Part shown: positions 11,547-25,359 of the stretch, one piece after another
Position numbering within the stretch: the stretch's first letter is position 1
How the letters are laid out: every line of letters starts with the position of its first letter
DNA from: a virus
IMG/VR virus record: IMGVR_UViG_3300027763_000034
Location: 52,156-116,155 of that record
Direction: 5' to 3' (one strand)
DNA length: 64,000 nt
The notes under the pieces: generated by a model
The model's input: the letters and a program-made list of their open reading frames with translations, nothing else
Databases searched by the model: none
Told to the model about the DNA's origin: nothing
Program-made: the position numbers and the translations under genes

Positions 11547-11580
11547 GTCTACTATAACAACAACGAAAGAAGGTCAATTC

Positions 11581-12964: not shown

Positions 12965-12966
12965 CC

Positions 12967-13000
12967 AGCTGGCCCGCAAAGGCACGGGGTCGGGCGTGTC
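12967..13000 (+). repeat. 34-bp GC-rich direct repeat, copy 2
   Basis: Identical to 11395-11428. Precedes a CRP-like box and a PafBC-type promoter, as copy 1 does. Confidence 0.85.
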
Positions 13001-13008
13001 TTTAAGGG

Positions 13009-13024
13009 TGTGATCAATATCACC
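13009..13024. promoter_or_regulatory. CRP/GlxR-like box
   Basis: TGTGA-TCAATA-TCACC, one mismatch. About 64 bp upstream of the predicted start point. Confidence 0.5.
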
Positions 13025-13051
13025 CTGGAAATTTGGGCCAGGATTGGAATA

Positions 13052-13073
13052 TGTCGGTCCATTCTGCTATACT
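13052..13073 (+). promoter_or_regulatory. PafBC/RecA-NDp-type promoter
   Basis: TGTCGGTC-N8-TATACT, using the G variant of TGTCR. The leader CAACCAACGATTGGG resembles the common leader and leads to 13101. Confidence 0.65.
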
Positions 13074-13100
13074 TGCCATTCAACCAACGATTGGGCTCCA

Positions 13101-13820
13101 ATGAAATTAAAACGTTCTAATGATAGAAAGGTGGCTAACCTTGTCACAAAAAATGGAAAGCAAGCCGCAATTGCGAACACGTTCGGATTACCTGCAGGAA
13201 AGAATTATTCATGCCCTGGTGCCACTAGTATTTGTGAGAGTGTTTGCTACGCAGGAAAACTTGAAAAGTTATTCCCAGGAGTAAAAACTAATCTGCTACA
13301 CAATTGGGATCTTCTGCGTAATGCGGATATGGATACAATGCTTATTCTATTGGATGAGATGATTGTTGAATTTATTGCTGATTGTGAAAAGAAAGACGCT
13401 CCTAAATTATTCCGTATCCACTGGGACGGCGATTTCTTCAATGATACTTATACCTATGCCTGGAAAGTAATTATTGAAAATCATCCCGATGTGCAATTTT
13501 GGGTTTACACACGTGTAAAGTCTGCAGCGCTTATTCTAAAGGATGTATCTAATCTATCTCTTTACTATTCCACCGACGATGAAAATAAAGAAATAGCATT
13601 CGATTTGAAAACTAATTCTAAGGTCCGCCTTGCTTACCTAGGCAAGACATTCGCTGCAACCGAAGACACAATGAAAGAGTTGACTGGTAAGCCTGGTGCT
13701 AAGTGTCCTGAGAATATGAAGAGTATTCCACTTATCTCTAGCAATGGGTCCGCCTGCGTATCTTGTGGCCTATGTGTATACGGTAAAGCGGATATTAGAT
13801 TTTCTGCGAGTAAAAAATAA
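13101..13820 (+). CDS. GP88-like actinobacteriophage protein
   Basis: 239 residues. YSCPGATSICESVCYAGK near the N-terminus, HWDGDFFNDTYTYAWKVI in the middle and CVSCGLCVYGKADI at the C-terminus match the mycobacteriophage 'gene product 88' family. The N- and C-terminal Cys groups could hold an iron-sulfur cluster or zinc. The frame is open from a TTG at 13044, but the promoter at 13052-13073 lies inside that extension, so the ATG at 13101 is chosen. The stop overlaps the next gene start. The molecular function of the family is not established. Confidence 0.75.
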   Translation: MKLKRSNDRKVANLVTKNGKQAAIANTFGLPAGKNYSCPGATSICESVCYAGKLEKLFPGVKTNLLHNWDLLRNADMDTMLILLDEMIVEFIADCEKKDAPKLFRIHWDGDFFNDTYTYAWKVIIENHPDVQFWVYTRVKSAALILKDVSNLSLYYSTDDENKEIAFDLKTNSKVRLAYLGKTFAATEDTMKELTGKPGAKCPENMKSIPLISSNGSACVSCGLCVYGKADIRFSASKK

Positions 13821-13963
13821 TGTATGACGTTATCGGATCCATTCTTGGAATTGGATTAATTGCATTCTTGTGCTCACCAATTGTGCTAGCAGTGTACATG
13901 TGGAATGGTGCAAAATTTGATGATGATAATGATGGAATAGAAGATTTACCTAATCGTTGGTAA
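13820..13963 (+). CDS. 47-residue membrane protein
   Basis: One long hydrophobic stretch (VIGSILGIGLIAFLCSPIVL) and an acidic tail (DDDNDGIEDLPNRW). TAATG overlap with the GP88-like gene. Confidence 0.65.
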   Translation: MYDVIGSILGIGLIAFLCSPIVLAVYMWNGAKFDDDNDGIEDLPNRW

Positions 13964-14012
13964 CGGCGTGTCGGCTTGACAAAGTCAAGCTGGCCCGCAA
14001 TATTGTGGGGGG

Positions 14013-14042
14013 TTATCCACAGGCTTACGGGAGTTATCCACA
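14013..14042 (+). promoter_or_regulatory. pair of DnaA boxes
   Basis: TTATCCACA at 14013-14021 and 14034-14042, both exact, same orientation, 21 bp apart (two helical turns). Confidence 0.7.
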
Positions 14043-14053
14043 ACCCCTGGAAT

Positions 14054-14069
14054 TGTGAGTATTATCACA
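14054..14069. promoter_or_regulatory. CRP/GlxR-like box
   Basis: TGTGA-GTATTA-TCACA, perfect half-sites, about 70 bp upstream of the predicted start point. Confidence 0.6.
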
Positions 14070-14102
14070 AAAGCTGCGACACGCCCATAATGGATTAGGT
14101 AA

Positions 14103-14124
14103 TGTCAGTGGCAAATGCTATAAT
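14103..14124 (+). promoter_or_regulatory. PafBC/RecA-NDp-type promoter
   Basis: TGTCAGTG-N8-TATAAT; leader CAACAACGAAAGG leads to 14153. Confidence 0.8.
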
Positions 14125-14152
14125 ACTCTTATCCAACAACGAAAGGTAACAA

Positions 14153-14359
14153 ATGACACCAGTAGAACACTCACTCAAATTCGTAACTGAGTTTGACGAA
14201 ACACACCCTATCGCAAAACAATTTCTAAACTTAGATGAACAATCACAAATTACAATGCTAGAGTCAATGCTAAAAGATTTATTGGTATCTGCTATTCAAC
14301 CAGTAATTGACCAAATAAATGAAAATGGCTCTTACGCAATTCTAAAGGTGGCTAACTAA
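14153..14359 (+). CDS. 68-residue helical early protein
   Basis: VEHSLKFVTEFDETHPIAKQFLNLDEQSQITMLESMLKDLL: predicted helical. Stop overlaps the next start (TAATG). No family recognised. Confidence 0.7.
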   Translation: MTPVEHSLKFVTEFDETHPIAKQFLNLDEQSQITMLESMLKDLLVSAIQPVIDQINENGSYAILKVAN

Positions 14360-14622
14360 TGGGATACAATACAGCGTTAGATTTAGCAGACTTAGATTTA
14401 GAACAAGGTATTGCTATTCACTTACAAAGTAATCATTACCCGCCCGTTCCTTATTCTATGGTGAAGCCGTGTATCGATGCTATCGATGCTTGGTGGGATG
14501 GCGATAGCGATAAACTGATCGAAATGCCTGAAGGCGTATCTTATCGAGGAGATAAGTTTGCCCCCGCTCACGCAATAATTGACCAACACCACTTACACGC
14601 TTGGCTACAAGAAAGTGATTAG
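14359..14622 (+). CDS. 87-residue early protein
   Basis: Ends PAHAIIDQHHLHAWLQESD and contains CIDAIDAWWDGD; the His/Trp-rich end resembles a family seen in actinobacteriophage early regions, without known function. Confidence 0.65.
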   Translation: MGYNTALDLADLDLEQGIAIHLQSNHYPPVPYSMVKPCIDAIDAWWDGDSDKLIEMPEGVSYRGDKFAPAHAIIDQHHLHAWLQESD

Positions 14623-14667
14623 CATCACACAATAACTTTCTCAAATAATGAGATAGGGCTAGACTAA

Positions 14668-14689
14668 TGTCAGACCCCAATGCTACAAT
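14668..14689 (+). promoter_or_regulatory. PafBC/RecA-NDp-type promoter
   Basis: TGTCAGAC-N8-TACAAT; leader AACAAAGAAAAGAGG leads to 14717. Confidence 0.7.
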
Positions 14690-14716
14690 ACTACCTAACA
14701 AAGAAAAGAGGCAAAA

Positions 14717-14896
14717 ATGACAATAGAAGGAAAACTCTATCAGGTCGGCGATTTATTCACCAGCCTAAAGTCAAAAAAGACAGGTGTTATCAAAGAGATA
14801 CACCCACAGGCATCTGGCTCGGTGCGTGTGCTACTGGAACTACCTAGCAAGGAAACTCGCTGGACTTCAGTATCAGCCAAGACACTACTTGGCTAA
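14717..14896 (+). CDS. 59-residue beta-rich early protein
   Basis: YQVGDLFTSLKSKKTGVIKEIHPQ...VRVLLELPSKETRWTSVSAKTL looks like a small SH3-like/KOW-like barrel. AAGAGGCAAAA precedes the ATG. No family recognised. Confidence 0.65.
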   Translation: MTIEGKLYQVGDLFTSLKSKKTGVIKEIHPQASGSVRVLLELPSKETRWTSVSAKTLLG

Positions 14897-15062
14897 TAAG
14901 ACGGAGGCATACACCATAATCGGGTGCTAAGCCACGAAACAGGGACAGTTTAGGAGAGTATCTAGTCCAATGTCGTAAGTAAGAACTCTCCCCCCTTCGG
15001 GGGAAATGTCAGACCCCCCTGCTATACTATCCATAACAACAACCAACGAAAGGTAATACAAA
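14897..15062 (+). promoter_or_regulatory. structured gap with hairpins and a promoter
   Basis: GGAGAGT and ACTCTCC can pair across about 35 nt, followed by CCCCC-TTCG-GGGGG, a UUCG-type hairpin ending directly at the next promoter. It may be a terminator or a processed RNA leader; no open frame. Confidence 0.5.
15007..15028 (+). promoter_or_regulatory. PafBC/RecA-NDp-type promoter
   Basis: TGTCAGAC-N8-TATACT; leader ACCAACGAAAGG leads to 15063. Confidence 0.75.
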
Positions 15063-15479
15063 ATGAGCAGAGCAATAACAGTAAAGGTGGCAACACCAAA
15101 GGTAATCAAGGCACTAGAAACTCGTCTAGCAACACTAGAAAAAGACTACGCTAGTCAAACAGCAAATGAAGCAAAGTTCCAAAAGGCACACGAAGCGTGG
15201 AAAAAGGAAATTGGTAAGTGGGCTATTGCCAACTTCTCAAAGTCTGAAAACCTACGCACAAACTATCGCTCTTGGAACAACACTCTCAATGTTGATTTTG
15301 ACATCATCACAAAAGAGGGAACTTTTCCATCAGAACCTGAAAAGGATTTTGAGGTTATCCATCAGCACAGTTATCGTGAGATGAAAGAGGACATCACCAA
15401 TGCTCTCACAATTCTCAAAATGACAGATGAGGAAACAGTAAATGCTTCTACAATGAAGCAGATTGCTAAGTATCTCTAA
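15063..15479 (+). CDS. 138-residue early protein with N-terminal coiled coil
   Basis: Residues 15-60 form a likely coiled coil (VIKALETRLATLEKDY, NEAKFQKAHEAWKKE). The rest is mixed, ending in a helix (ETVNASTMKQIAKYL). No family recognised; codon use matches its neighbours. Confidence 0.7.
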   Translation: MSRAITVKVATPKVIKALETRLATLEKDYASQTANEAKFQKAHEAWKKEIGKWAIANFSKSENLRTNYRSWNNTLNVDFDIITKEGTFPSEPEKDFEVIHQHSYREMKEDITNALTILKMTDEETVNASTMKQIAKYL

Positions 15480-15586
15480 ATAGGTTTTGGGGGGTTAGCA
15501 CACAAAGTCTAGACACCTAAACCCAAACAACCTGAGTAAGTTGCCAAACTGCTCTCCTTCGGGAAACTACTAACAAAGGTAATACA

Positions 15587-15847
15587 ATGGCAAATCGTTT
15601 CAGAGTAGAAATCTACGATGCTAACAAAGCAAATGACATCACGATTTATTCGGATCAAGGTGTTGATAAAGAGTATCTAACTGAATTAGTATTCAGTAAC
15701 ATCAGAAACTTTAGCGGAAAAATAAATGCTTATGTTTTTGATAACGTAAAGAAAAAGAAAACAACTGCGATGTTTCTTGATGAGAGCACAGTTGAGTTTA
15801 ATAAAAATCTAATTAGCAATGCTAAAAAGGTAGAGGTGGGGATTTAA
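15587..15847 (+). CDS. 86-residue early protein
   Basis: MANRFRVEIYDANKANDITIY... alternates strands and helices; C-terminal NAKKVEVGI. It follows a CTCCTTCGGGA hairpin and an AAAGG ribosome site. No family recognised. Confidence 0.65.
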   Translation: MANRFRVEIYDANKANDITIYSDQGVDKEYLTELVFSNIRNFSGKINAYVFDNVKKKKTTAMFLDESTVEFNKNLISNAKKVEVGI

Positions 15848-15876
15848 TCTCCAGCTCGGCCCCCGCTTTTGGGGGG

Positions 15877-15908
15877 TTATCCACAGGTTTACGAGTGCTT
15901 GTGGATAA
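15877..15908. promoter_or_regulatory. inverted pair of DnaA boxes
   Basis: TTATCCACA at 15877-15885 and its reverse complement TGTGGATAA at 15900-15908, both exact. Confidence 0.7.
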
Positions 15909-15919
15909 CCCTGAAAGTT

Positions 15920-15935
15920 TGTGAGAATGATCACA
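15920..15935. promoter_or_regulatory. CRP/GlxR-like box
   Basis: TGTGA-GAATGA-TCACA, perfect half-sites, about 74 bp upstream of the predicted start point. Confidence 0.6.
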
Positions 15936-15973
15936 CCGCACAATTCGGACAAATGACTAACTAACCTAGACAA

Positions 15974-15995
15974 TGTCAGTGGCAGATGTTATACT
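15974..15995 (+). promoter_or_regulatory. PafBC/RecA-NDp-type promoter
   Basis: TGTCAGTG-N8-TATACT, with TAGACA upstream; leader AAACGAAAGG leads to 16025. Confidence 0.8.
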
Positions 15996-16024
15996 TATGA
16001 CTAATCAAACGAAAGGAAATAAAA

Positions 16025-17029
16025 ATGGCTCATAATCTAGAAATGGAAAATGGCGAAGTTGCATTTGCACTTCGTGGTGCTCCTGCTTGGCACAATCTCG
16101 CTAACCGAATCTTTACACAAGATGAGGAAGTTACAACCGCTACAATGCTTGAAGAGGCAAAGTTAGCAAATTGGAATGTTCGTTTATCTCCAATCACTGA
16201 GCACATTCCAGAATCTTGGAATGATGTTTCTACCGCATCTCTTGTCATTCGTGATAACCCATTCAATAAGGGCGTAGATGTTCTCGCAACTGTCGGCAAG
16301 CGTTACAAGCCTGTGCAGAATGAAGAATTATTTGCATTCGCTGATGCAATTCACGATGCTAATGCTGATTGCCGTTGGGAATCTGCTGGCTCATTGAAAA
16401 AGGGTAAAGTAGTTTTCGGAACTGTAGACATTCCCCGCACAATGGTATTAGACCCACAAGGTGCTAATGACCAAACTAAACTCTATCTAATTGTATGGAC
16501 ATCACACGATGGTTCTGTTGCTGTTCAGGCAGCCGTTACACCCGTTCGTGTTGTATGCCAAAACACACTAAACCTTGCAATGAAGAATGCTAAGCAATCT
16601 TTCAAGATTCGCCACACGCAATCTGTTGAAGGTCGCATTCAGGTTGCTCGTGAAACTCTTGGAATGGCGCTTGGCTATTTCGATGAGTTCGAAGTTCAAG
16701 CAAAAGCACTTTATGCTCAAGCAATTACTGATGCTGAATTCTCTAAGTTGATTCAGACAATCTATCCTAAGCCTGAAAAAGATGCTAAGGGTGCAATCAA
16801 GAAGTGGGAAAATAAGGTCGTTCTAATTGATGACCTTTATCATAACTCACCAACTAACGCTACAATCAAGGGAACTAAGTGGGGTGCGTTCAATGCACTA
16901 ACTGAGCGCCTTGATTATTATCGTTCAGGTCGTGGCAATGGCGAAACACTTATGGCGGGTGCATCAGGGTTCGACCCAGTTCTAACCGCAGAAAAAAATA
17001 AGTTGTATCGTATGGTTGCAACTTTCTAA
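16025..17029 (+). CDS. DUF932 / phage-plasmid-like protein
   Basis: 334 residues. The opening (ENGEVAFALRGAPAWHNLANRI) and the blocks YKPVQNEELFAFADA, GKVVFGTVDIP, VWTSHDGSVAVQAAVTPVRVVCQNTL and FNALTERLDYYRSG match the DUF932 family common on plasmids and phages. It is the largest protein of the early region and has its own damage-type promoter. No biochemical function is known for the family. Confidence 0.85.
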   Translation: MAHNLEMENGEVAFALRGAPAWHNLANRIFTQDEEVTTATMLEEAKLANWNVRLSPITEHIPESWNDVSTASLVIRDNPFNKGVDVLATVGKRYKPVQNEELFAFADAIHDANADCRWESAGSLKKGKVVFGTVDIPRTMVLDPQGANDQTKLYLIVWTSHDGSVAVQAAVTPVRVVCQNTLNLAMKNAKQSFKIRHTQSVEGRIQVARETLGMALGYFDEFEVQAKALYAQAITDAEFSKLIQTIYPKPEKDAKGAIKKWENKVVLIDDLYHNSPTNATIKGTKWGAFNALTERLDYYRSGRGNGETLMAGASGFDPVLTAEKNKLYRMVATF

Positions 17030-17082
17030 AAAACTAAATAAAAATCCTGAGCAAGATTTAAAACTGCTCACAATTTTTTCTT

Positions 17083-17156
17083 GGTCTGTTAGCTCAGTTG
17101 GTTAGAGCGCTACCCTGTCACGGTAGAGGTCGACGGTTCAAGTCCGTTACAGATCG
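17083..17156 (+). tRNA. tRNA-Asp (anticodon GTC)
   Basis: Complete cloverleaf: acceptor GGTCTGT/ACAGATC, D arm AGCTCAGTTGGTTAGAGC, anticodon stem CTACC/GGTAG around CTGTCAC, T loop TTCAAGT. The only tRNA in the early region and on the plus strand. No CCA encoded. Confidence 0.92.
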
Positions 17157-17188
17157 CAAAGCGCCCCCAAAGGTAAGGGATCAAAAAG

Positions 17189-17204
17189 TGTGTTACGAAT
17201 CACA
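17189..17204. promoter_or_regulatory. CRP/GlxR-like box
   Basis: TGTGT-TACGAA-TCACA, one mismatch, about 64 bp upstream of the predicted start point. Confidence 0.45.
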
Positions 17205-17231
17205 AAAAAAATCCCTGAAAGCTATTGTAAA

Positions 17232-17253
17232 TGTCAGTGGGCTCGTGTATAAT
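17232..17253 (+). promoter_or_regulatory. PafBC/RecA-NDp-type promoter, leaderless
   Basis: TGTCAGTG-N8-TATAAT. Only 7 nt separate the -10 box from the ATG at 17261, so the transcript should start at or next to the AUG. Confidence 0.8.
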
Positions 17254-17260
17254 TCTCATC

Positions 17261-17917
17261 ATGACCAACGAACTAGTATCAACTAAGTATACATTTGCCT
17301 GTGACCCAGACGAATGCGATGTATTAATAGAACTAACATCATCTGACGGATTTGGATTCCCGTCGGGTGTGACTGAAATCACTTGTCCTTGTGGCCGTAA
17401 GCCAGTCTTATTGTCAGTGGTCAATGCTACAATTGCTCCTATAACCCAAACGAAAGAGGAAAAAATGGAACCAACAACAACACCAATCCCTGAGTCATAT
17501 AACTCTAATCTATTGGTAACCTACAAAGTTATCCGTGGATTCTCAGATGCAGAATATGCAACTGATAAAGTTACAAGTCTTGAATGGGACTTACACAATG
17601 GACGTCAGGCACAGAAGCACAATGCAGTTCTCCAAGGCAAGATTGATTCGGCTAAAGAAATTATCTGCGAGGCATATGCAGACTCACAAGACCAAGATAC
17701 CTTGCGTGAAATTGCTGAAGCGCTTGGCATTGAACTAATCAAGGAAGTTGAATGGTCTGCATCTATTGAAGTTAGCGGAACATATTCTTTCAACATTCTT
17801 GAGAATGATTATGATATGGACCTTGAATCAGAAATTACAGATGCAATCTTTGCTGATTCACATCACGGTAACATTGAAATCAATGACCAAGAAGTATGTA
17901 ATGTGCGTGAGAACTAA
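17261..17917 (+). CDS. early protein with N-terminal zinc ribbon and nested short form
   Basis: 219 residues from a leaderless start. Residues 1-55 hold FACDPDECDVLIEL...EITCPCGRKP, a zinc ribbon; then the frame reads through a second PafBC-type promoter (17412-17433) and its AACGAAAGAGG leader (residues ITQTKEE) into a second ATG at 17465. The shorter form (17465-17917, 151 residues) has a coiled region (VTSLEWDLHNGRQAQKHNAVL) and an acidic end. Two products, a 219- and a 151-residue protein, are therefore expected. No family recognised. Confidence 0.65.
   Translation: MTNELVSTKYTFACDPDECDVLIELTSSDGFGFPSGVTEITCPCGRKPVLLSVVNATIAPITQTKEEKMEPTTTPIPESYNSNLLVTYKVIRGFSDAEYATDKVTSLEWDLHNGRQAQKHNAVLQGKIDSAKEIICEAYADSQDQDTLREIAEALGIELIKEVEWSASIEVSGTYSFNILENDYDMDLESEITDAIFADSHHGNIEINDQEVCNVREN
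17412..17433 (+). promoter_or_regulatory. PafBC/RecA-NDp-type promoter (internal, in frame)
   Basis: TGTCAGTG-N8-TACAAT inside the 17261 frame; leader AAACGAAAGAGG leads to the internal ATG at 17465. Confidence 0.75.
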
Positions 17918-18129
17918 TGTACTTTGAGTTGACCGCTCCCGATAGGCTATCTCTTGAGATGGCTTATTGGGATGCACAAATCACAGGGCTCGACCCTGAA
18001 TTTATGCCGCCATTGACATTCAACATTGGAACTGGTAGTATTGAGAAAGTTAGTCGCATTCGTGATAAGTATAATTTAAAAGAATCATACTGGTCAGACA
18101 GAGAAGCGACAGGATACAGGGAGAAGTAA
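17917..18129 (+). CDS. 70-residue early protein
   Basis: MYFELTAPDRLSLEMAYWDAQ... TAATG overlap at both ends. No family recognised. Confidence 0.65.
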   Translation: MYFELTAPDRLSLEMAYWDAQITGLDPEFMPPLTFNIGTGSIEKVSRIRDKYNLKESYWSDREATGYREK

Positions 18130-18275
18130 TGTCAGATTACAAAGATGGATTTCAAGACGGGTATAAGTTTGCTCGTGAAGAACTAATGGAAAAGTTAGCA
18201 GAGATTGATATTGCTGACATTGACTCTTGGATCCTTGACCGTCTTTCAGAAATGATTGAGGGTGGCAACCTGTGA
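18129..18275 (+). CDS. 48-residue acidic early protein
   Basis: MSDYKDGFQDGYKFAREELMEKLAEIDIADIDSWI: helical and acidic. Coupled on both sides by one-base overlaps. Confidence 0.6.
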   Translation: MSDYKDGFQDGYKFAREELMEKLAEIDIADIDSWILDRLSEMIEGGNL

Positions 18276-18463
18276 TGGCTGAATGGCTTAAGTGTGATCA
18301 GTGTGCAGCTCAGGCAATGTGGGAAGCAAAGAAAGATGAGATGTCTCTTTATTTTTGTGGACATCATAAAAACAAACAGGGCGAGTCACTTGTGGACTGG
18401 GCCCATGAAATGGTACAATTACTAAACTACGAGCAAGAACAACAACTAGCAAAGGCGGAATAA
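18275..18463 (+). CDS. DUF7455-like small zinc protein
   Basis: 62 residues. CDQCAAQAMWEAKKDEMSLYFCGHH matches the Cys-x2-Cys ... Cys-x2-His arrangement of a small actinobacterial and phage family (DUF7455-like). The ATG at 18275 (TGATG overlap) is preferred to the GTG at 18272. Confidence 0.7.
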   Translation: MAEWLKCDQCAAQAMWEAKKDEMSLYFCGHHKNKQGESLVDWAHEMVQLLNYEQEQQLAKAE

Positions 18464-18464
18464 A

Positions 18465-18833
18465 ATGGGCGACAGAGCAAACTTTGGATTCAGAGATTCC
18501 AAGGAAAATATTGTATTTTTATATGGACATTGGGCAGGGCACCGAATGCTAGAGAATTTAGCGGACGCCGTGCAGATTGCACATCCACGTTGGAATGATG
18601 AAGCATATGCTACACGTATTGCTATCAGCCAAATGATTGGTGATGAGTGGGCTAGCGAAACAGGCTGGGGCATTAGTGTTAATCAATTGGCAGATAATGA
18701 ACACAAGGTCCCAATTATTGATTGGAAAAATAAAACGTTTACGTTAATGGAAGAAGACCTGCAGACTGTAGTATTTAGTACAACCTTGGATGCATTTGTG
18801 GCCAAGTATTGTAGTCAACTAAGTATGGTATAA
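18465..18833 (+). CDS. conserved phage early protein
   Basis: 122 residues: MGDRANFGFRDSKENIVFLYGHWAGHRMLENLADAV..., a pattern seen in actinobacteriophage early genes with no assigned function. Its stop lies inside the -10 box of the candidate RNA promoter. Confidence 0.7.
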   Translation: MGDRANFGFRDSKENIVFLYGHWAGHRMLENLADAVQIAHPRWNDEAYATRIAISQMIGDEWASETGWGISVNQLADNEHKVPIIDWKNKTFTLMEEDLQTVVFSTTLDAFVAKYCSQLSMV

Positions 18834-18834
18834 T
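18829..18834 (+). promoter_or_regulatory. -10 box of the candidate small RNA
   Basis: TATAAT preceded by TATGG and by AGTCAACT. No good -35 at standard spacing; an AGTCAACT motif also precedes the TATAAT of the 55008 gene (minus strand). Confidence 0.5.
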
Positions 18835-18840
18835 TAATCT

Positions 18841-18990
18841 AGGACCTTGGTCCTGGTTTTAATACAGAAATGAAGTGGTGCGTCTAACTAGTCTACGGGC
18901 CAGGCGCTAAGTAAAGCGGTTTATTTCTTTCGTTGGAAATCAGCAGCCATATTCATTAACCCCCCAGCTTGATCTGGGGGGTATTTTTTT
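18841..18990 (+). ncRNA. candidate trans-acting small RNA complementary to the early ribosome-binding leader
   Basis: About 150 nt bounded by a TATAAT box and a strong terminator, with no usable open frame. It starts with a hairpin (AGGACC-TT-GGTCCT). At 18923-18940 it can form ATTTC / GAAAT closing the 8-nt loop TTTCGTTG, the exact complement of CAACGAAA, the core of the leader shared by most early mRNAs; the complementarity extends to CAACGAAAGAA (11 nt) with the leaders at about 11560 and 11680. It is probably a regulator of early translation. Expression and pairing are predicted, not shown. Confidence 0.6.
18960..18990 (+). terminator. rho-independent terminator of the candidate RNA
   Basis: CCCCCCAG (18960-18967) and CTGGGGGG (18974-18981), 6-nt loop, then TATTTTTTT. 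Confidence 0.9.
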
Positions 18991-19070
18991 GCCCACAAAA
19001 GAAATGAGGGTATCATATGTGTTTTACGGATGTCAAGTCAAAACCCTGAAAATCCCAAGCTTTGAGATCA

Positions 19071-19086
19071 TGTGGCATGAATCACA
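19071..19086. promoter_or_regulatory. CRP/GlxR-like box
   Basis: TGTGG-CATGAA-TCACA, one mismatch, about 54 bp upstream of the predicted start point. Confidence 0.45.
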
Positions 19087-19104
19087 TGCATTTGCTCTTC
19101 CATA

Positions 19105-19126
19105 TGTCAGTGGTCTGATATATAAT
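19105..19126 (+). promoter_or_regulatory. PafBC/RecA-NDp-type promoter
   Basis: TGTCAGTG-N8-TATAAT; leader ATCAACGAAAGG leads to 19154. Confidence 0.8.
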
Positions 19127-19153
19127 TAGAACATATCAACGAAAGGATATAAA

Positions 19154-19927
19154 ATGCCAAATTGGTGTTACAACACATTAACTATTCAAGGACCTAAGTC
19201 TGAGGTAGATATGATTAAAGATAGATTGAATAAACCTTTTACATTAGCCCAAGAAACATTTGGTATGGGTGATATATCTACTATGGGATTTCCTACTAAG
19301 ATTGAACAGGTATCTTATTCTAATCCCGTTTTTTCTTTTCATAACATCCACTCATATAAAGATGACGGAATTACTGATGAGGAATATGCCTGCCAGCCTA
19401 CACGACTAGGAACAGACACTAGTGCTCCTGATTGGTTTGCTAAAGAAGTTGCACATGCTAAAACTCAGAAGGATTGGTATTCATGGAATACATCTAATTG
19501 GGGAACCAAATGGGATGTTGCTGTCCGTGATGAAGATGAATATCCTGAAACAGAATTACTTGAATATAAGTCAGAAGGTGATGACAACTGGGTTGTATAT
19601 AAATATGAAACTGCTTGGTCACCTGCTGTAACTATCTTAACTAAACTAAGTAATCTTGTTCCGAACTGCCTGCTCACATTAGAGTATGAAGAAGAAACAG
19701 GCTGGGGTGGGGAATATGAGATTGTCCGTGGTGAAGTAAAAGAATTGGCTGAATGGGAAAACCGTTGCTATGCTTGCCAGTCTTTTGATACATTGAGTTA
19801 TTGTGAAGATGACTGTGGAGAATTCTGCTCAGAATGTAATCAAGGCTCTTGGCAGGATGAAAAGGCAATGGCAGAATGTCAGACCCATAGTGTATTATTA
19901 GAGCCTAAAGAAAAGGTGGAGGCATAA
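19154..19927 (+). CDS. DUF1281/Api92-like early protein with C-terminal zinc ribbon
   Basis: 257 residues. MPNWCYNTLTIQGPKSEVDMIKDRL is the signature opening of the Api92/YubB-like ferredoxin-fold family found on phages and plasmids. The C-terminus adds CYACQSFDTLSYCEDDCGEFCSEC, a Cys-rich metal site. The final codons (ECQTHSVLL) contain a further PafBC-type promoter. Function of the family is unknown. TAATG overlap with the next gene. Confidence 0.75.
   Translation: MPNWCYNTLTIQGPKSEVDMIKDRLNKPFTLAQETFGMGDISTMGFPTKIEQVSYSNPVFSFHNIHSYKDDGITDEEYACQPTRLGTDTSAPDWFAKEVAHAKTQKDWYSWNTSNWGTKWDVAVRDEDEYPETELLEYKSEGDDNWVVYKYETAWSPAVTILTKLSNLVPNCLLTLEYEEETGWGGEYEIVRGEVKELAEWENRCYACQSFDTLSYCEDDCGEFCSECNQGSWQDEKAMAECQTHSVLLEPKEKVEA
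19876..19897 (+). promoter_or_regulatory. PafBC/RecA-NDp-type promoter (inside a coding end)
   Basis: TGTCAGAC-N8-TATTAT within 19154-19927, 30 bp before the ATG at 19927. Confidence 0.55.
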
Positions 19928-20157
19928 TGGCAAGTTTCTTAGAAGATGTAAATCAAATGGTAATTGACGCTGTATATCAAGAGATAGCAGAACAATTACT
20001 AGATGACTGGATTAATAATAATCTAAATGAAGGACAGTATTATGCAGATAAACAATTTGCACAAATGTCAGGAGATAAATTTATCTTTGAGCAATTTAAT
20101 AAGTTCTATGAACTTAAAGAAGGAGACGATGATTATATGGAGTATGACTTATGCTAG
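19927..20157 (+). CDS. 76-residue acidic early protein
   Basis: Helical N-terminus (FLEDVNQMVIDAVYQEIAEQLLDDWI) and acidic end (EGDDDYMEYD). GGTGGAGG precedes the start. No family recognised. Confidence 0.65.
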   Translation: MASFLEDVNQMVIDAVYQEIAEQLLDDWINNNLNEGQYYADKQFAQMSGDKFIFEQFNKFYELKEGDDDYMEYDLC

Positions 20158-20333
20158 GTTATACTGAATCTGATCTAAATGAAATGATTAATGCTGTACA
20201 TGACGCAAAGCTTTTCTATCTTAGGACCCCGTCCGATTTAATGGATAAGTCTTTGCTAACTAATAGTTTGCTAAAGACAAATGATTTCTTGCAAGGACTA
20301 TGGGCGGAGGGTTACTTTGACCACACTAACTAA
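20151..20333 (+). CDS. 60-residue early protein
   Basis: MLGYTESDLNEMINAVHDAK... overlaps the previous stop by 7 nt. Predicted helical; no family recognised. Confidence 0.6.
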   Translation: MLGYTESDLNEMINAVHDAKLFYLRTPSDLMDKSLLTNSLLKTNDFLQGLWAEGYFDHTN

Positions 20334-20502
20334 ATCTTCTAAGTTCCTAGAATATATGAAGATACATCTAATTAGTCTTAACCAGGACTTAGAAATGAAT
20401 CCTGAATCTATCAATGTAATTGATATTCCAGGACAAATATATGCAACCGAACATTTGTTGTCAGTGGCTACTGATATAATGAATGAAAACGAGAGGATAT
20501 AA
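20317..20502 (+). CDS. 61-residue early protein, TTG start
   Basis: The frame is open from 20281 but a GCGGAGG site at 20304-20310 points to the TTG at 20317. Sequence MTTLTKSSKFLEYMKIHLIS... The end (LSVATDIMNENERI) encodes the next PafBC-type promoter and leader, as at 11645, 12262 and 17412. Confidence 0.55.
   Translation: MTTLTKSSKFLEYMKIHLISLNQDLEMNPESINVIDIPGQIYATEHLLSVATDIMNENERI
20459..20480 (+). promoter_or_regulatory. PafBC/RecA-NDp-type promoter (inside a coding end)
   Basis: TGTCAGTG-N8-TATAAT; leader AAAACGAGAGG leads to 20504. Confidence 0.75.
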
Positions 20503-20503
20503 A

Positions 20504-20782
20504 ATGAATTCAGAAGACATTGGGCTCCCGCCCCACTTGCAACGTTTAGTTAATGCAGGTGTTAATGGATTAGATATAATGCATGGCGAACTAAAGAATC
20601 TAATGTTGATTGCCGAAGAGCAATTGGCTTGGGCTCAGGCAATTGAAGATGAAACCGAAGAGGCAATGGATTCAATGGCACGTACAGAGGCGGAGGGACG
20701 ACTAGATACTCTAGTTGAACTATATAAACTAACATATGATTTATCATTTGCTATAGGAGAAAAGGAAGGGCAAAAAGTATGA
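20504..20782 (+). CDS. 92-residue helical early protein
   Basis: HGELKNLMLIAEEQLAWAQAIEDETEEAMDSMARTEAEGRLDTLVELY is a long acidic helix or coiled coil. Start at 20504 follows GAGAGGATATAAA. No family recognised. Confidence 0.65.
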   Translation: MNSEDIGLPPHLQRLVNAGVNGLDIMHGELKNLMLIAEEQLAWAQAIEDETEEAMDSMARTEAEGRLDTLVELYKLTYDLSFAIGEKEGQKV

Positions 20783-21012
20783 CATACGAGCCAAGTCTAG
20801 AAATCCTGGAAATGGAATACTCTTGCTCACCTGGAGGAGTAGATACATTTGAGGTGTATGATAAAACAGATATACCTTTATCTGTACCAATATATGAGAC
20901 TGAATCTTTGACGGATGCCGTGCTCTACTGTTATAATTTAGGGAAAGACTTTACTGTCAAGACATTAGCGGAATGGAATGAAAGGGAGTTAGCATATGAA
21001 GCCAGCCGATAA
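20779..21012 (+). CDS. 77-residue early protein
   Basis: MTYEPSLEILEMEYSCSPGG..., mixed fold; overlaps both neighbours. No family recognised. Confidence 0.6.
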   Translation: MTYEPSLEILEMEYSCSPGGVDTFEVYDKTDIPLSVPIYETESLTDAVLYCYNLGKDFTVKTLAEWNERELAYEASR

Positions 21013-21313
21013 AGATAAACTAAACGAATGTTTAAAGATTCTAGACACCACCGACCTTGGCTTGTCATTAGTATGGCTGTGGACATGGTCCACAATTAAC
21101 AACATTTTTGAGGATGAGACCTACAAGCAGAACTGCACCATAGATGACATGTGGGACCACCTCTGCGAGGCCGTGGAGGCTGGTATGGGCTTCTCCCTAG
21201 AGTACGGGGCGGAACAACATCAGGAAGACGTCCTTGAATGGATGATGAATCGTGAGTACATTGTCGACACAATGTTTGAAGAAGAGGAAGAAGACGAAGA
21301 TGAGGATGAGTGA
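20996..21313 (+). CDS. 105-residue acidic early protein
   Basis: Trp-rich centre (LSLVWLWTWSTINN) and a C-terminal run of Glu/Asp (MFEEEEEDEDEDE). AAGGGAG lies before the ATG. Base composition is more GC-rich in 21100-21250 than around it. No family recognised. Confidence 0.65.
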   Translation: MKPADKDKLNECLKILDTTDLGLSLVWLWTWSTINNIFEDETYKQNCTIDDMWDHLCEAVEAGMGFSLEYGAEQHQEDVLEWMMNREYIVDTMFEEEEEDEDEDE

Positions 21314-21443
21314 TCAATACATCGATGAGATCCTTAACAGGGCCCAACAGCTTTTGTGGGGCGGATCAGAAACAGAGAACATCGAAGCACACAACCTTAT
21401 ATCTAATCTAATTAAAGAAAGAGTAGAACAAGTTTCTAACTGA
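21306..21443 (+). CDS. 45-residue early protein
   Basis: MSDQYIDEILNRAQQLLWGG...: ATG at 21306 overlaps the previous stop and follows GATGAGG. No family recognised. Confidence 0.55.
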   Translation: MSDQYIDEILNRAQQLLWGGSETENIEAHNLISNLIKERVEQVSN

Positions 21444-21471
21444 GGGCAAGATTTTTAGTTTACGGTGACTA

Positions 21472-21500
21472 TTTACAAACCCGTGAAAAGTTGCTATAAT
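21472..21500 (+). promoter_or_regulatory. sigma70-type promoter
   Basis: TTTACA (21472-21477), 17 bp, TTGC-TATAAT (21495-21500). It lacks the TGTCAG element, so it differs from the other early promoters. Confidence 0.75.
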
Positions 21501-21532
21501 TAAAGCAAACCGATCTAGAAAGGATCAAACAC

Positions 21533-21682
21533 ATGACAACAAAGCGTGAATATCTAAAGCAGCAAGGCATCACAGTAGGTGTACGTGGCCGCTTCTCAGG
21601 AGCAGCTAAGGTAGCTCTACAAGAAGCTGCAGCAAAGGGAATTACATTTACATCAGAGGCGCCTGCTAACAAGGCCAAGTAA
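21533..21682 (+). CDS. Lsr2 C-terminal-like DNA-binding protein
   Basis: 49 residues. REYLKQQGITVGVRGRFSGAAKVALQEA follows the pattern of the DNA-binding domain of actinobacterial Lsr2, including the RGR hook that enters AT-rich minor grooves. It has its own strong promoter and terminator, so it should be made abundantly and independently. It could bind or silence AT-rich DNA, or interfere with host Lsr2. The match is by pattern and is short. Confidence 0.6.
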   Translation: MTTKREYLKQQGITVGVRGRFSGAAKVALQEAAAKGITFTSEAPANKAK

Positions 21683-21689
21683 GCCAGGG

Positions 21690-21730
21690 ACGGGGTTAGG
21701 GCTTCGTTGGTCCTTGACCCCGTTTCTTAT
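21690..21730 (+). terminator. rho-independent terminator
   Basis: ACGGGGT (21690-21696) pairs with ACCCCGT (21717-21723), followed by TTCTTATTTTT. Confidence 0.75.
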
Positions 21731-21764
21731 TTTTGATACAATAGACAGTTAGGCGGAGGCGGAT

Positions 21765-22133
21765 ATGAAAACACCAGAAAGCAAAGTAGCAGAATCATTA
21801 GTTAATTTAATGGATGACCATTGGTTTAATCCAACAATGTTTGGTCGATATTTGGCAGAACAGCCAATGTATACACTTGACCGCATTATGGAAATGGTTG
21901 TATCGATTATATCAGAACAAGCAAAGATATATGATGTATATCTAAATAGGGGTACATCGTCTGAAGGTCTATTACTAGCCAATGAACTGAATGAATGTAT
22001 CAAAGCATATCAAGAAGATAATAGTTTAATTAATCTTAAGTTACCTTCTCGTTCCTACAAAGTAGGGACGGTTCCAAAGGAACCTAAAGTTAATATATTT
22101 GGATGGAAAGAAGAAACAGATCCATTCAGTTAG
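21765..22133 (+). CDS. 122-residue hypothetical protein
   Basis: SKVAESLVNLMDDHWFNPTMFGRYLAEQPMYTLDRIMEMVVSIISEQAK is helical; the end is basic then acidic. GGCGGAGGCGG precedes the ATG. Last plus-strand gene before the non-coding region. No family recognised. Confidence 0.65.
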   Translation: MKTPESKVAESLVNLMDDHWFNPTMFGRYLAEQPMYTLDRIMEMVVSIISEQAKIYDVYLNRGTSSEGLLLANELNECIKAYQEDNSLINLKLPSRSYKVGTVPKEPKVNIFGWKEETDPFS

Positions 22134-22197
22134 TATTAGGCATATGACAATGAATAGATGAATGCCTGGTTAGATAGATAAACATATCTAGCCCAAA

Positions 22198-22230
22198 TTA
22201 TCCACAGGGTTATCCACATCCTGTGGATTT
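22198..22230. promoter_or_regulatory. DnaA-box cluster
   Basis: TTATCCACA at 22198-22206 and 22210-22218, then TGTGGATTT (7 of 9, inverted) at 22222-22230. Confidence 0.65.
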
Positions 22231-22582
22231 TTTGTATGCTGTGGGCATGTGGGCAACATTTTGCTTTTACGACACATGATCCAAATCCCTGAAATTTCTA
22301 GCTCATGGGCCAAATTTTTCATTTACGAAGCCTTGACAAAAATCCCTGAAAATGCTACACAATATGTCTAAATAGATAATTATACATATAGAATGTCGAC
22401 AAATGTGTAGAGAATATGGCAAAATAAGCAAAAATCGCTCCATAAATCTATTGACAAATATGGATCAATATGCTGCTATATATGGCTATTGACATTACGT
22501 TTAAGATGGGGTATGCTCAATTACATATGTATGTTTAACTATATATAACTATAGTATATGATATGCTATCTATAGTATAAAT

Positions 22583-22609
22583 TCTCCACTATGCTCCACT
22601 TTACTCCAC
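22583..22609 (+). repeat. CTCCACT iterons at 10-bp spacing
   Basis: Three copies of CTCCACT start at 22583, 22593 and 22603, all on the same face of the helix, next to AT-rich DNA. Confidence 0.6.
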
Positions 22610-22678
22610 TATATAAGCCTTCTAAGGGCTATATGAGGCTGGATAAATGGGAGGGGGATATAGGAGTTAGGAGCTAAT

Positions 22679-22843
22679 TTATTGCAATTTGCTCTTATTC
22701 TTAGATGGTCTTCTAGACCAATCTGGAGCTTTATGTGCAGTAGTTCCTCTAGATGTAGAATCTATTAGGGCTTTATTCTTATCTAATGCTTCTTGGGCAT
22801 ATTGAAGCTGTTGATCCCAATTGAACTTCCGTTTTTTTGCCAT
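22679..22843 (-). CDS. 54-residue basic hypothetical protein
   Basis: MAKKRKFNWDQQLQYAQEAL...DWSRRPSKNKSK: basic at both ends. TAATG overlap with the upstream gene. No family recognised. Confidence 0.6.
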   Translation of the reverse strand: MAKKRKFNWDQQLQYAQEALDKNKALIDSTSRGTTAHKAPDWSRRPSKNKSKLQ

Positions 22844-23073
22844 TATAAGTGAATCTCATTTACAGGCTCTTTAGACCAATGTACGTAAGATCTAATATAA
22901 ACTGCGCCATAGGCTATTGCTGCAAGGATAAATCCGTACTGCTTAGTAGTAATAGCATAAATCATCCATAGACACTCATTTACCAGTAATACAAGCCATG
23001 CCCATATAACCTTGCGTCCTACAAAGAATGTCCCTGTGACTCCAATGGCTGCTAAGATATACGACCAATACAT
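22843..23073 (-). CDS. small three-helix membrane protein
   Basis: 76 residues with three hydrophobic segments (about 3-20, 24-40, 46-62) and conserved aromatic positions (NECLWMIYAITTKQYGF). The pattern resembles PnuC-like or holin-size membrane proteins of actinobacteriophages. No function assigned. Confidence 0.65.
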   Translation of the reverse strand: MYWSYILAAIGVTGTFFVGRKVIWAWLVLLVNECLWMIYAITTKQYGFILAAIAYGAVYIRSYVHWSKEPVNEIHL

Positions 23074-23261
23074 TACTTACAACTCATGCAGTAGTATGGA
23101 ACACGTAGGTTATCTCTATGAATATACTCTGTTCGAGCACAACCAGCACATATAGATCTAACTATCTCAGAATCATCTTCTGGCATATTAATCAAAGGAT
23201 CTTTTGTATAGTATATCTTGGTTATATACCATGTAATGGCTATTAGTAGTATCTCTATCAT
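23073..23261 (-). CDS. membrane-anchored zinc-ribbon protein
   Basis: 62 residues: N-terminal hydrophobic segment (MIEILLIAITWYITKIYY) and CAGCARTEYIHRDNLRVPYYCMSC. The ATG at 23261 is preferred to the TTG at 23291, which overlaps the upstream gene. Confidence 0.6.
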   Translation of the reverse strand: MIEILLIAITWYITKIYYTKDPLINMPEDDSEIVRSICAGCARTEYIHRDNLRVPYYCMSCK

Positions 23262-23274
23262 TGTTTTCCCGCTC

Positions 23275-23466
23275 TTATCTATTCGGTCCAAATATTGGAG
23301 TTATTGTTGGATGAACATCGTCATCATCCGACCATTTGCCTGTGCTATACCCAGCTTGAGGATTGGGCATATCATCGCCCATTGCACCACAGTTGTCGCA
23401 TGTGACTTGACCATCAAGGTCTAGTTGATAGTCACATCCATATTTGGTACATAGGGCATCGCTCAT
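23275..23466 (-). CDS. 63-residue zinc-ribbon protein
   Basis: CTKYGCDYQLDLDGQVTCDNCG has two Cys pairs. The start overlaps the upstream stop by ATGA. No family recognised. Confidence 0.6.
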   Translation of the reverse strand: MSDALCTKYGCDYQLDLDGQVTCDNCGAMGDDMPNPQAGYSTGKWSDDDDVHPTITPIFGPNR

Positions 23467-23717
23467 ACATTTAGTGTATCATATCTGTCTGGATCTGACA
23501 AGATCTCTTCTTCCAGATCATCTGGTATATTATGTCCTAATTGTCTATGTTGTCTAATATGTTCGATTAGCTGATCATCATTAGTTATCTTCTCAGATAA
23601 TCCAAATAATGAATATTCATCTAAGTTCTCATTTAGCCAACATGCACAACACTCTATGTATCCTTCAACGTGGGCATATATGTATATGTCTGAGTCAAAG
23701 AATCTAGAGTATGCCAT
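23463..23717 (-). CDS. 84-residue hypothetical protein
   Basis: SDIYIYAHVEGYIECCACWL... followed by an acidic helix and EEILSDPDRYD. The CCAC group may bind metal. A similar family is found in other phages, but no function is known. Confidence 0.6.
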   Translation of the reverse strand: MAYSRFFDSDIYIYAHVEGYIECCACWLNENLDEYSLFGLSEKITNDDQLIEHIRQHRQLGHNIPDDLEEEILSDPDRYDTLNV

Positions 23718-23818
23718 TACATTGTTTTCTTTATCTTATTTAATGCTCTATGAAACTTGATGTATCTAATTGGGTTCTTCCATATTTTAAGTGGAAGCTT
23801 TATCTTTTTCTTTGTCAT
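23717..23818 (-). CDS. 33-residue basic peptide
   Basis: MTKKKIKLPLKIWKNPIRYI then KFHRALNKIKKTM: very basic. Overlaps the starts and stops of both neighbours by one base. Confidence 0.5.
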   Translation of the reverse strand: MTKKKIKLPLKIWKNPIRYIKFHRALNKIKKTM

Positions 23819-24009
23819 CATTCCTCAATTATATCATTAAATGTGTCAACGTAGTTGACTGAATTGTCTCTACCGCCGCCGATTTCACTATTTGGGATCT
23901 GATTTTCATGGTATTGTAAATGAAAGTCTAATAGATTATGAGTAACTGCACAAAAGCATGTAGGGCAATGTGTGATCCATTGAGACTTATCTTCCCATTG
24001 TTTACTCAT
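23818..24009 (-). CDS. C2H2-type small zinc protein
   Basis: 63 residues; HCPTCFCAVTHNLLDFHLQYH gives Cys-x2-Cys and His-x4-His at zinc-finger spacing. No wider family recognised. Confidence 0.6.
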   Translation of the reverse strand: MSKQWEDKSQWITHCPTCFCAVTHNLLDFHLQYHENQIPNSEIGGGRDNSVNYVDTFNDIIEE

Positions 24010-24238
24010 AAGCTTCAGGTGAAGGAGTCGGACCTTCGTTATCAGGTTCGGAACCTGGAGTACTGCCGTTATACGAACCTGAAATATTCTTAGGAATAAT
24101 TCTCTTAATCTCGTAGTAACAGACTGGGCACTCTCCGATGTGCAACCAATTACCTGAATCTAAGATAACCATTTCGGTTAACCTTCCTTCTACATTCTTA
24201 TTACAAGAAACGCAGAAAGCACTCAACATTACTGTCAT
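24002..24238 (-). CDS. zinc-ribbon protein
   Basis: 78 residues; CVSCNKNVEGRLTEMVILDSGN...ECPVCYYEIKR is a complete zinc ribbon, with a Ser/Pro-rich disordered tail. Overlaps neighbours. Confidence 0.65.
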   Translation of the reverse strand: MTVMLSAFCVSCNKNVEGRLTEMVILDSGNWLHIGECPVCYYEIKRIIPKNISGSYNGSTPGSEPDNEGPTPSPEAYE

Positions 24239-24417
24239 AACTCAGTAAACTTTTTACCATTCCATTCATATTTCAATCCACATTTACATTCCCAGATTGA
24301 GCCTGAATGTCTTTTTTGAAGATGTATCCCAGAGGTTGTATGAGCACCTAAAGCCCATGGTAAATCACATTTATGCTCTGGTTCACCGACTATTTTAATC
24401 CACTTCGACATACTCAT
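24235..24417 (-). CDS. 60-residue Cys/His protein
   Basis: EHKCDLPWALGAHTTSGIHLQKRHSGSIWECKCGLKYEWNG: Cys and His positions fit one metal site, and the WECxCGxxYEWNG end resembles small phage zinc-ribbon proteins. Confidence 0.6.
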   Translation of the reverse strand: MSMSKWIKIVGEPEHKCDLPWALGAHTTSGIHLQKRHSGSIWECKCGLKYEWNGKKFTEL

Positions 24418-24679
24418 CAGCCTCTCTAAGCCATTGATCTTCCCATAATCCCATTAAAGACTCATTTCCAATATCATCAAAATAATATCTTTTCTTTATT
24501 GGGTTATATGTCCAACCATACCATGTATTTCCTTCTGACCATGTAAGATTGGTTGGTTCTTCATGTTCATGTTCTTTAAGAATGCGTAGCAGCTCATCAT
24601 TATCCCTTACAACCGCCTGTATTGCCATTCTAAGGCGTCTCGGGCGCATAAGGTATCTTTCTACCAATTCATATAGCAT
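24395..24679 (-). CDS. 94-residue hypothetical protein, leaderless
   Basis: Basic N-terminus (RYLMRPRRLRMAIQ), Trp-rich centre (TWSEGNTWYGWTYNP) and acidic end. TATACT ends 6 nt before the ATG with TTGACG at 17 bp, so transcript and protein start together. First gene of the 24679-22679 operon. Confidence 0.65.
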   Translation of the reverse strand: MLYELVERYLMRPRRLRMAIQAVVRDNDELLRILKEHEHEEPTNLTWSEGNTWYGWTYNPIKKRYYFDDIGNESLMGLWEDQWLREADEYVEVD

Positions 24680-24685
24680 GTGTTT

Positions 24686-24714
24686 AGTATACTATATATG
24701 ACGGGTGCCGTCAA
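24686..24714 (-). promoter_or_regulatory. sigma70 promoter with internal palindrome, leaderless
   Basis: TTGACG-17-TATACT on the minus strand. The spacer holds TGACG-GCACC-CGTCA, an inverted repeat overlapping the -35 box, a likely operator. Confidence 0.7.
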
Positions 24715-24742
24715 TAGTCTCTACCGCCGAATTTTCGCACTA

Positions 24743-24771
24743 TTGTACACTATATTGCGTAATGGTATAAT
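24743..24771 (+). promoter_or_regulatory. sigma70 promoter, leaderless
   Basis: TTGTAC (24743-24748), 17 bp, TATAAT (24766-24771), then 6 nt to the ATG at 24778. Divergent to the promoter at 24686-24714. Confidence 0.7.
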
Positions 24772-24777
24772 TATGAC

Positions 24778-25359
24778 ATGATTACATTAAATCAATTAAT
24801 TAAAGAAGCAAAAGATGCTGGACTTAACTACGCTGTATTTAAAAACTGGCATCAGCCAACGCCGACAAGAAGAGAGATAGAGCCTATGTACGGCCCAAAT
24901 GACATCTGGCACAATAGGCTTCAGCTTCAAGATAGAGTTGTACCAGCGTCAGTTAAATATTTTATGGATGAGGCTAATCAGGCCTACCCAGATACAGAAA
25001 ATGATTTTTATATTTTATCAAATATATACTATAGAAATTTTTATCATAACAGACCAGGATCTAAATTGCATAGAGACACATTTGATGTAGTTCATTTACA
25101 ATGTACTGGTGTTACAAAGTGGGATATCGGTATAAAGGCGGAAGCATTAAACGACCCAGCTTACTTAAGGCCACCAGTTGGTACTGAATGGGACTGGAGA
25201 GCAGAATTTACTGGGGACTATGAAACATTTATTCTTGAGCCTGGAGATGTAATTTGGTTTAACAATAAATCTTGGCATAGAACAGAAAACATATGTGACA
25301 AGTATTCGGTAGTCATGCAAGCAGGCACAGTAGATATTTCAGGGAGAAAGAGAAGATGA
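24778..25359 (+). CDS. cupin/JmjC-like 2OG-Fe(II) oxygenase
   Basis: 193 residues. His98-x-Asp100 (LHRDTFDVVHLQC) and His167 (SWHRTE) after LEPGDVIWF form the iron triad of the cupin-type oxygenases (JmjC-related). The fold differs from the P4H-like proteins on the minus strand. No ribosome site; leaderless start at 24778. It overlaps its paralogue at 25356 by 4 nt. Possible substrates are protein side chains or small molecules; not determinable here. Confidence 0.75.
   Translation: MITLNQLIKEAKDAGLNYAVFKNWHQPTPTRREIEPMYGPNDIWHNRLQLQDRVVPASVKYFMDEANQAYPDTENDFYILSNIYYRNFYHNRPGSKLHRDTFDVVHLQCTGVTKWDIGIKAEALNDPAYLRPPVGTEWDWRAEFTGDYETFILEPGDVIWFNNKSWHRTENICDKYSVVMQAGTVDISGRKRR

Follow-up and report, generated by a model that had tools for sequence, protein, structure and literature searches.

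The window analysed here is 64 kb of a 116,155-base virus record in IMG/VR, and it is nearly certain that the interval at 18841-18990, on its plus strand, encodes a member of a real RNA family. The predicted product is a trans-acting phage small RNA (sRNA) in which a three-way-junction scaffold would hold up a hairpin with the core CUUUCGUU; this core is the reverse complement of AACGAAAG, the leader containing the Shine-Dalgarno (SD) sequence before many early genes, with which it would pair. Comparison of relatives makes it very probable that loop-leader pairing is the conserved function of the RNA, and we put at roughly three in four the probability that it is a trans-acting anti-SD RNA that lowers translation of the early regulon. 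If this is true, one RNA could shut off a whole set of phage early genes at once.

An invariant loop complementary to the early leaders

A first-pass annotation of the window had described a hairpin at 18923-18940 whose loop of eight nucleotides (nt) is an exact complement of the leader, and reading of the sequence bears this out, with ATTTC (18923-18927) and GAAAT (18936-18940) enclosing the loop TTTCGTTG at 18928-18935. The hairpin is real, but its extent has to be revised: it caps the P3 arm within a larger RNA, and the unit conserved across relatives, CUUUCGUU at 18927-18934, is shifted by one base from the loop. The leader had been placed before at least nine early start codons, and AACGAAAG is indeed present in the window far above chance, occurring 10 times where 1.8 +/- 1.2 are expected and where none of 100 shuffles reaches 10; nine occurrences lie on the plus strand ahead of start codons, and the tenth is the complement of the loop. 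CAACGAAA occurs six times, against 1.6 expected. An 11-nt match reported at about 11560 and 11680 was also recovered, as CAACGAAAGAA at 11561 and 11681, and its counterpart in the RNA is TTCTTTCGTTG at 18925-18935. The leader sites are as follows.

10310-10317, plus strand: leader site AACGAAAG
11562-11569, plus strand: leader site, in CAACGAAAGAA (11-nt match)
11682-11689, plus strand: leader site, in CAACGAAAGAA (11-nt match)
12312-12319, plus strand: leader site AACGAAAG
14138-14145, plus strand: leader site, CAACGAAAG
15045-15052, plus strand: leader site, CCAACGAAAG
16008-16015, plus strand: leader site AACGAAAG
17449-17456, plus strand: leader site AACGAAAG
19138-19145, plus strand: leader site, CAACGAAAG, of the next downstream gene (19154-19927)

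The same element lies behind the upstream open reading frame (ORF) in all 38 of the relatives found through that ORF, and the carriers of the RNA comprise the window phage and well over a hundred uncultured relatives; a DNA similarity search for the RNA among cultured phages gave no match. Our first pattern scans demanded the loop, so that its invariance among their matches is uninformative, and the search was therefore redone through the upstream protein. A protein-seeded profile that is blind to the loop found a CUUUCG loop in 80 of 80 slots, with CUUUCGUU in 79; a second protein profile, for divergent proteins, gave 80 loci, and when four others are included a covariance model recognises the RNA in 83 of 84. 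These 83 RNA loci represent 62 distinct sequences, and pooling of the protein-found RNAs with the 44 distinct RNAs of an alignment referred to here as A1 gives a set of 103 distinct RNAs, 101 of which have P3 with CUUUCGUU. Each of the eight core positions carries 2.0 bits in these 101 RNAs, while the base 5' of the core varies (C in 54, A in 30 and U in 17) and the bases 3' of it carry 0.88, 0.59, 0.31 and 0.12 bits. The pairs at the foot of P3 change compensatorily, the third being GC in 43, CG in 20, UA in 14 and AU in 13. An 8-mer that stays constant while its stem varies freely has the look of a recognition sequence, and this constancy, with stems and flanks changing around it, supports the earlier suggestion that one trans-acting RNA could pair with the ribosome sites of most early genes. 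A single-base variant of the core, CUUUCGAU, is present in L032, outside the pooled set. A scan of genome contigs gave nine matches, with no actinobacterial host among them, that we take to be chance; the pattern-scan matches L054, L056, L059, L069, L087, L124, L126, L135 and L153 were set aside as chance, apparently in coding sequence.

Architecture of the RNA

The A1 alignment folds as a three-way junction, in which P1 has GGU/GCC, P2 is followed by an inner helix P2b, a strand UAAVUAAA occupies the junction, and P3 opens with GC/GC. Pairing is present in 93% of cells, with two-sided changes in nine pairs, and P2 is 100% paired in the 44 sequences, with CG, GC and AU changes. The covariation score is 0.272, compared with 0.104 for shuffles and at most 0.066 for slid partners, and the 150-nt transcript folds better than its own shuffles (z -2.25). 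The parts of the RNA in the window are listed below.

18841-18990, plus strand: predicted small RNA of about 150 nt, with the three-way-junction core at 18867-18958 (sequence, folding and alignment of relatives)
18841-18854, plus strand: 5' hairpin AGGACC-TT-GGTCCT, in the window clade only (sequence and relatives)
18874-18951, plus strand: P1 closing helix, strands 18874-18879 and 18946-18951, with a covarying pair (UA/AU/GU) at 18876-18949
18880-18907, plus strand: P2 helix (18880-18885 with 18902-18907) and inner P2b (18891-18894 with 18897-18900), from the alignment
18908-18915, plus strand: A-rich junction strand UAAGUAAA, conserved in A1 and the protein-found RNAs
18916-18944, plus strand: P3 arm, in which GC at 18916-18917 pairs with 18943-18944 and, in the upper stem, ATTTC (18923-18927) pairs with GAAAT (18936-18940)
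18927-18934, plus strand: core CUUUCGUU, invariant in 101 RNAs and the reverse complement of AACGAAAG, the core of the early leaders
18959-18990, plus strand: intrinsic terminator, with its stem at 18959-18982 and then a run of seven T

The TATAAT box, strong terminator and lack of a gene noted at first pass are all present: the -10 TATAAT, with an extended TG, is at 18829-18834, the terminator scores best of the 26 terminator-like sites within 5000-24900, and no ORF of at least 40 amino acids (aa) lies inside 18841-18990. With its predicted promoter and terminator, the RNA of the window clade appears to be an independent intergenic transcription unit. At gathering threshold, Rfam models match only tRNAs within the window; at permissive thresholds the best weak match in the interval is suhB, with 24.7 bits against the 41 required (E 0.0047). 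The predicted structure is thus a previously undescribed one, outside every Rfam family.

Co-occurrence of loop and leader

The early promoters have in common a TGTC(A/G)G that precedes the -10 by about 10 nt, and we counted the SD sites GAAAG behind such promoters, scoring whether AAC stands directly before GAAAG. It does so in 145 of 206 early leaders from 17 phages with the loop, as compared to 14 of 98 in relatives without the RNA, most of these from G004 and G008 and with G018, which has a recent deletion of the slot, left out (Fisher p 8e-21, a value that is overstated because sites are treated as independent). By a stricter count, AAC is present in 117 of 158 early leaders but only 9 of 192 other SDs in the RNA-bearing phages, and in 4 of 57 early leaders and 10 of 202 other SDs in those without the RNA. 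For example, leaders in RNA-less relatives include AACAACA-GAAAGAAGG, where the window phage has AACAACAAC-GAAAGAAGG. The flank is also in register, as CCUUUCGUU loops are found with AACGAAAGG leaders, in which G comes next, in 68 of 74 cases, compared with 31 of 47 for other loops. What is found is an accessible, conserved seed complementary to the translation starts of its predicted targets, as is asked of a trans-acting sRNA.

A comparison of relatives had been proposed at first pass as a check on the pairing, and it came out in its favour: AAC leaders are common only together with the loop, with partial exceptions in G018, G004 and G008, and the motif is displayed again, on a bare hairpin or on P2, in relatives with other scaffolds. 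Thus in L190 the junction has been lost and the slot contains a plain hairpin, GUGGGGAGG and CCCUCCCCAC around the loop UUUCCUUUCGUUCU, followed by a terminator, and this bare hairpin still displays CCUUUCGUU. The P3 motif has been lost in L160, L185 and L399-401, where the P2 loops are ACCUUUC, ACCCUUUC and UUCCUUUCG respectively; those of L160 and L185 show CCUUUC, and that of L399 has a 9-nt match to the leader GAACGAAAGGAAT of the same locus. L399-401 also display CUUUCGUU on a second, separate hairpin of 14 bp. This hairpin, which has the loop UUCUUACCCUUUCGUUG, lies some 2.7 kb further downstream than the RNA slot, at 6023 in L399-L401 and at 15731 in L478.

In L466 (576-655) the junction is kept, P3 is short, the anti-leader loop is gone and none of eight early leaders has AAC. 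We considered whether L466 might be a pair of changed loop and changed leader, but no complement of its P2 loop GAUUGUCU is enriched, and it counts as joint absence only; the junction scaffold may have a second, older function. In L193 the RNA has been deleted from the slot (AAGGTG is joined to AAAAGACTAAGGGTA) and the leaders are retained, making it a natural deletion mutant. Hidden anti-leader hairpins were sought in the RNA-less G004, G008, G018 and G007 and none was found, the lone candidate, in G008, being dismissed as leader-sense.

Proposed mode of action and alternatives

We propose that pairing in the cell would cover GAAAG, the SD itself, and block binding of the 30S subunit, and that translation of the early regulon would then fall together. 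Blocked 30S binding is the simplest outcome because the duplex covers GAAAG, and for the same reason repression is likelier than the stabilisation that had been suggested beside it. The predicted loop-leader duplexes have energies of -10.4 to -15.2 kcal/mol, compared with -6.0 to -12.4 for the 16S tail on the same leaders, and the loop is predicted to outcompete 16S pairing at 10 of 11 leaders, with the reservation that these energies exclude the cost of loop strain and that the 16S tail used is a general bacterial one that may not match that of the host.

Besides this reservation, several observations count against the proposal. CUUUC is expected also of any 16S-like sequence, and CGUU alone is leader-specific. 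G018 has lost the RNA slot yet keeps AAC in 10 of 13 leaders, and the fragments G004 and G008, in which no RNA was found, have AAC in 4 of 13 and 6 of 13 leaders. The ORF tree, whose topology may not be that of the genomes, shows just two to three independent gains or losses, none of them opposite in direction and too few for a sign test, and because of this the loop-leader link is a strong association without phylogenetic replication. Finally, the RNA of the L050 and L034 clades is bordered by neither a terminator nor a clear -10, and since neither is evident it may be processed there from an upstream mRNA.

The same pairing evidence would serve equally well if the RNA protected or activated the early mRNAs, for example by blocking RNase attack, and Staphylococcus aureus RNAIII represses some targets and activates others (PMC9217828); we regard this as unlikely, as a duplex that covers GAAAG and outbids the 16S at nearly all leaders should exclude ribosomes while it is present. 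Slightly less likely still is that the loop mimics the anti-SD and is directed at host mRNAs or at translation as a whole, with the match to phage leaders secondary. CUUUC is indeed the pyrimidine run at the 16S 3' end, but the core extends into CGUU, which has no 16S equivalent, and it fits the AAC-GAAAG early leaders and not other SDs (9 of 192); loop and AAC leaders are, moreover, jointly absent in L466.

A different view is that the junction is the functional unit, as a protein-binding, ligand-binding or replication RNA, with the P3 loop making a tertiary or protein contact and the leader match incidental. In favour of this, UAAGUAAAGC of the junction strand and GCAGCC are both conserved, L466 retains the junction without the loop, and in many members CCA or CAA near P2 could, judged by eye only, pair with the UUGG of the loop. 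We nonetheless think this improbable, since L190 drops the junction and keeps the hairpin, in L399-401 both P2 and an additional hairpin display the motif, and the occurrence of the leaders follows that of the loop. We reject the idea of a decoy for a leader-binding protein, which would copy the leader, as the loop is the complement of the leader. Least probable of all, and by our estimate very slight, is a coincidence without trans function, whether by chance or driven by the SD. The leaders are SDs and some anti-SD complement is expected somewhere, but only about 2% of 150-base plus-strand windows (130 of 6385) contain the complement of a recurrent leader 8-mer, before the invariance in 101 RNAs and the re-display on other scaffolds are counted.

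The promoter of the RNA and leaderless mRNAs

The promoter of the RNA is unlike the early kind, as a motif AGTCRACTA, here AGTCAACTA, stands before the extended -10. Each of four related genomes has exactly two copies of the arrangement AGTCAACTA-N4/5-TGGTATAAT, one at the RNA and one on the opposite strand, and the second AGTCAACTA-type copy in the window is upstream of the terminase large subunit operon.

18813-18834, plus strand: promoter of the RNA, AGTCAACTA at 18813-18821 and extended -10 TGGTATAAT at 18826-18834
55008-55037, minus strand: AGTCAACTA promoter of a predicted leaderless mRNA, upstream of 54460-55008 and of the terminase large subunit gene (52038-53840)
55037-55008, 23860, 10105-10072 and 7408, minus strand: AGTCRACTA promoters of predicted leaderless mRNAs, with the ATG 6 nt past the -10

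In the four other AGTCRACTA promoters of the window the distance from the -10 to the ATG is exactly 6 nt, as it is in relatives, and because of this spacing the mRNAs that they drive are probably leaderless. One promoter of this set heads the operon with the terminase large subunit and one lies just before a tRNA. We also note that TAGTCGACTA is a perfect palindrome, and it is perhaps an operator.

The RNA would be expressed jointly with the leaderless genes and later than the early genes, and since its promoter has the AGTCRACTA motif and the sibling mRNAs would escape an anti-SD RNA, we infer that it is active when the AGTCRACTA promoters fire. It is conceivable, though we hold this only tentatively and would not bet on it, that the AGTCRACTA-driven RNA silences all SD-led early mRNAs and spares leaderless ones, shifting expression from early to later genes through a change in which translation starts are allowed. 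Such a link would constitute a simple viral switch between translation programmes, and would be relevant to the question of why viruses of actinobacteria combine leaderless with SD-led mRNAs. In the early promoters, at 10240-20490 in the window, the spacing of TGTC(A/G)G(TG) is unlike that of a normal sigma-70 -35, which points to an activator, from the phage or from its host, or to an unusual sigma factor.

The virus and the neighbourhood of the RNA

The DNA polymerase of the window has its closest matches, at 57-58% identity, in the BillNye/Wakanda group of Streptomyces phages, and phages of Streptomyces, Gordonia and Nocardia, as well as the lake phage DSL-LC01, encode homologues of the ORF preceding the interval; on these grounds the virus is probably an actinophage, and its relatives indicate that its habitat is probably fresh water. 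The interval is flanked by this 122-aa ORF and by the gene starting at 19154.

18465-18833, plus strand: 122-aa ORF with no function assigned, which stands before the RNA slot in almost every relative and was the search anchor

Between the RNA and the next gene there is a conserved regulatory region of about 140 bp (18991-19136), in the same place in L001-L038. This region and its counterparts contain GCCCRCAAAAGANNTGAGGGTA and CRP-like palindromes, which are TGTGATCTTGACCACA and TGTGGTGTGAATCACA in relatives and CATGTGGCATGAATCACATG, at 19069-19088, in the window. In L099 and L140 the RNA is about 1 kb upstream of the ORF and not directly behind it, a placement which suggests that the RNA gene can move.

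Comparison with known systems

The slot behind the upstream ORF is occupied by a different RNA in the Stanwilliamsviridae, in which the Streptomyces phage Karimac has a canonical transfer-messenger RNA (tmRNA; L209 4417-4695, Karimac 97752-98030) directly behind the homologous ORF gp191. The slot thus seems to be an exchange site for RNA genes. The RNA described here bears no resemblance to the Karimac tmRNA and we reject the idea that it is a tmRNA relic; the tmRNA model RF00023 has no match anywhere in the record of this phage.

A search limited to the open PMC literature turned up no description of a phage RNA that fits a leader common to an early regulon. The nearest parallels in form are RNAIII, the UCCC-loop sRNAs such as RsaE, and Escherichia coli CyaR, in which an unpaired pyrimidine motif binds the SD of many mRNAs (PMC2837412, PMC9217828), and the phage RNA is like them in having a conserved pyrimidine loop directed against the SDs of many mRNAs. 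However, those RNAs are chromosomal and reach scattered cellular targets through generic G-rich SDs with extra gene-specific pairing, while the present RNA is phage-borne and its whole 8-nt seed fits one leader common to the early regulon; the UCCC motif of the staphylococcal sRNAs is also absent, the core being CUUUCGUU.

In P1 and P7, the c4 RNA is a phage RNA in which complementary loop stretches block a phage ribosome-binding site (PMC12197685). It has the single target ant, whereas at least nine separate targets are predicted here through the common leader; and c4 is cut from the leader of its own target operon, while the present RNA has its own predicted promoter and terminator and targets spread across 9 kb. 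In its proposed role, the inactivation of early mRNAs at the SD, the RNA resembles RegB of T4, a phage product that acts at the ribosome-binding sites of early mRNAs and inactivates them (PMC3014915), although RegB is a protein endonuclease that cuts GGAG, and RegA a protein repressor, while here an RNA would pair with the leader. It would add a new family of structured RNAs, carried by actinophages that are abundant in lakes, with a loop-leader pair that offers a ready-made two-sided test system, and would be an RNA counterpart of T4 RegB, placing an early regulon under one RNA by means of a common leader.
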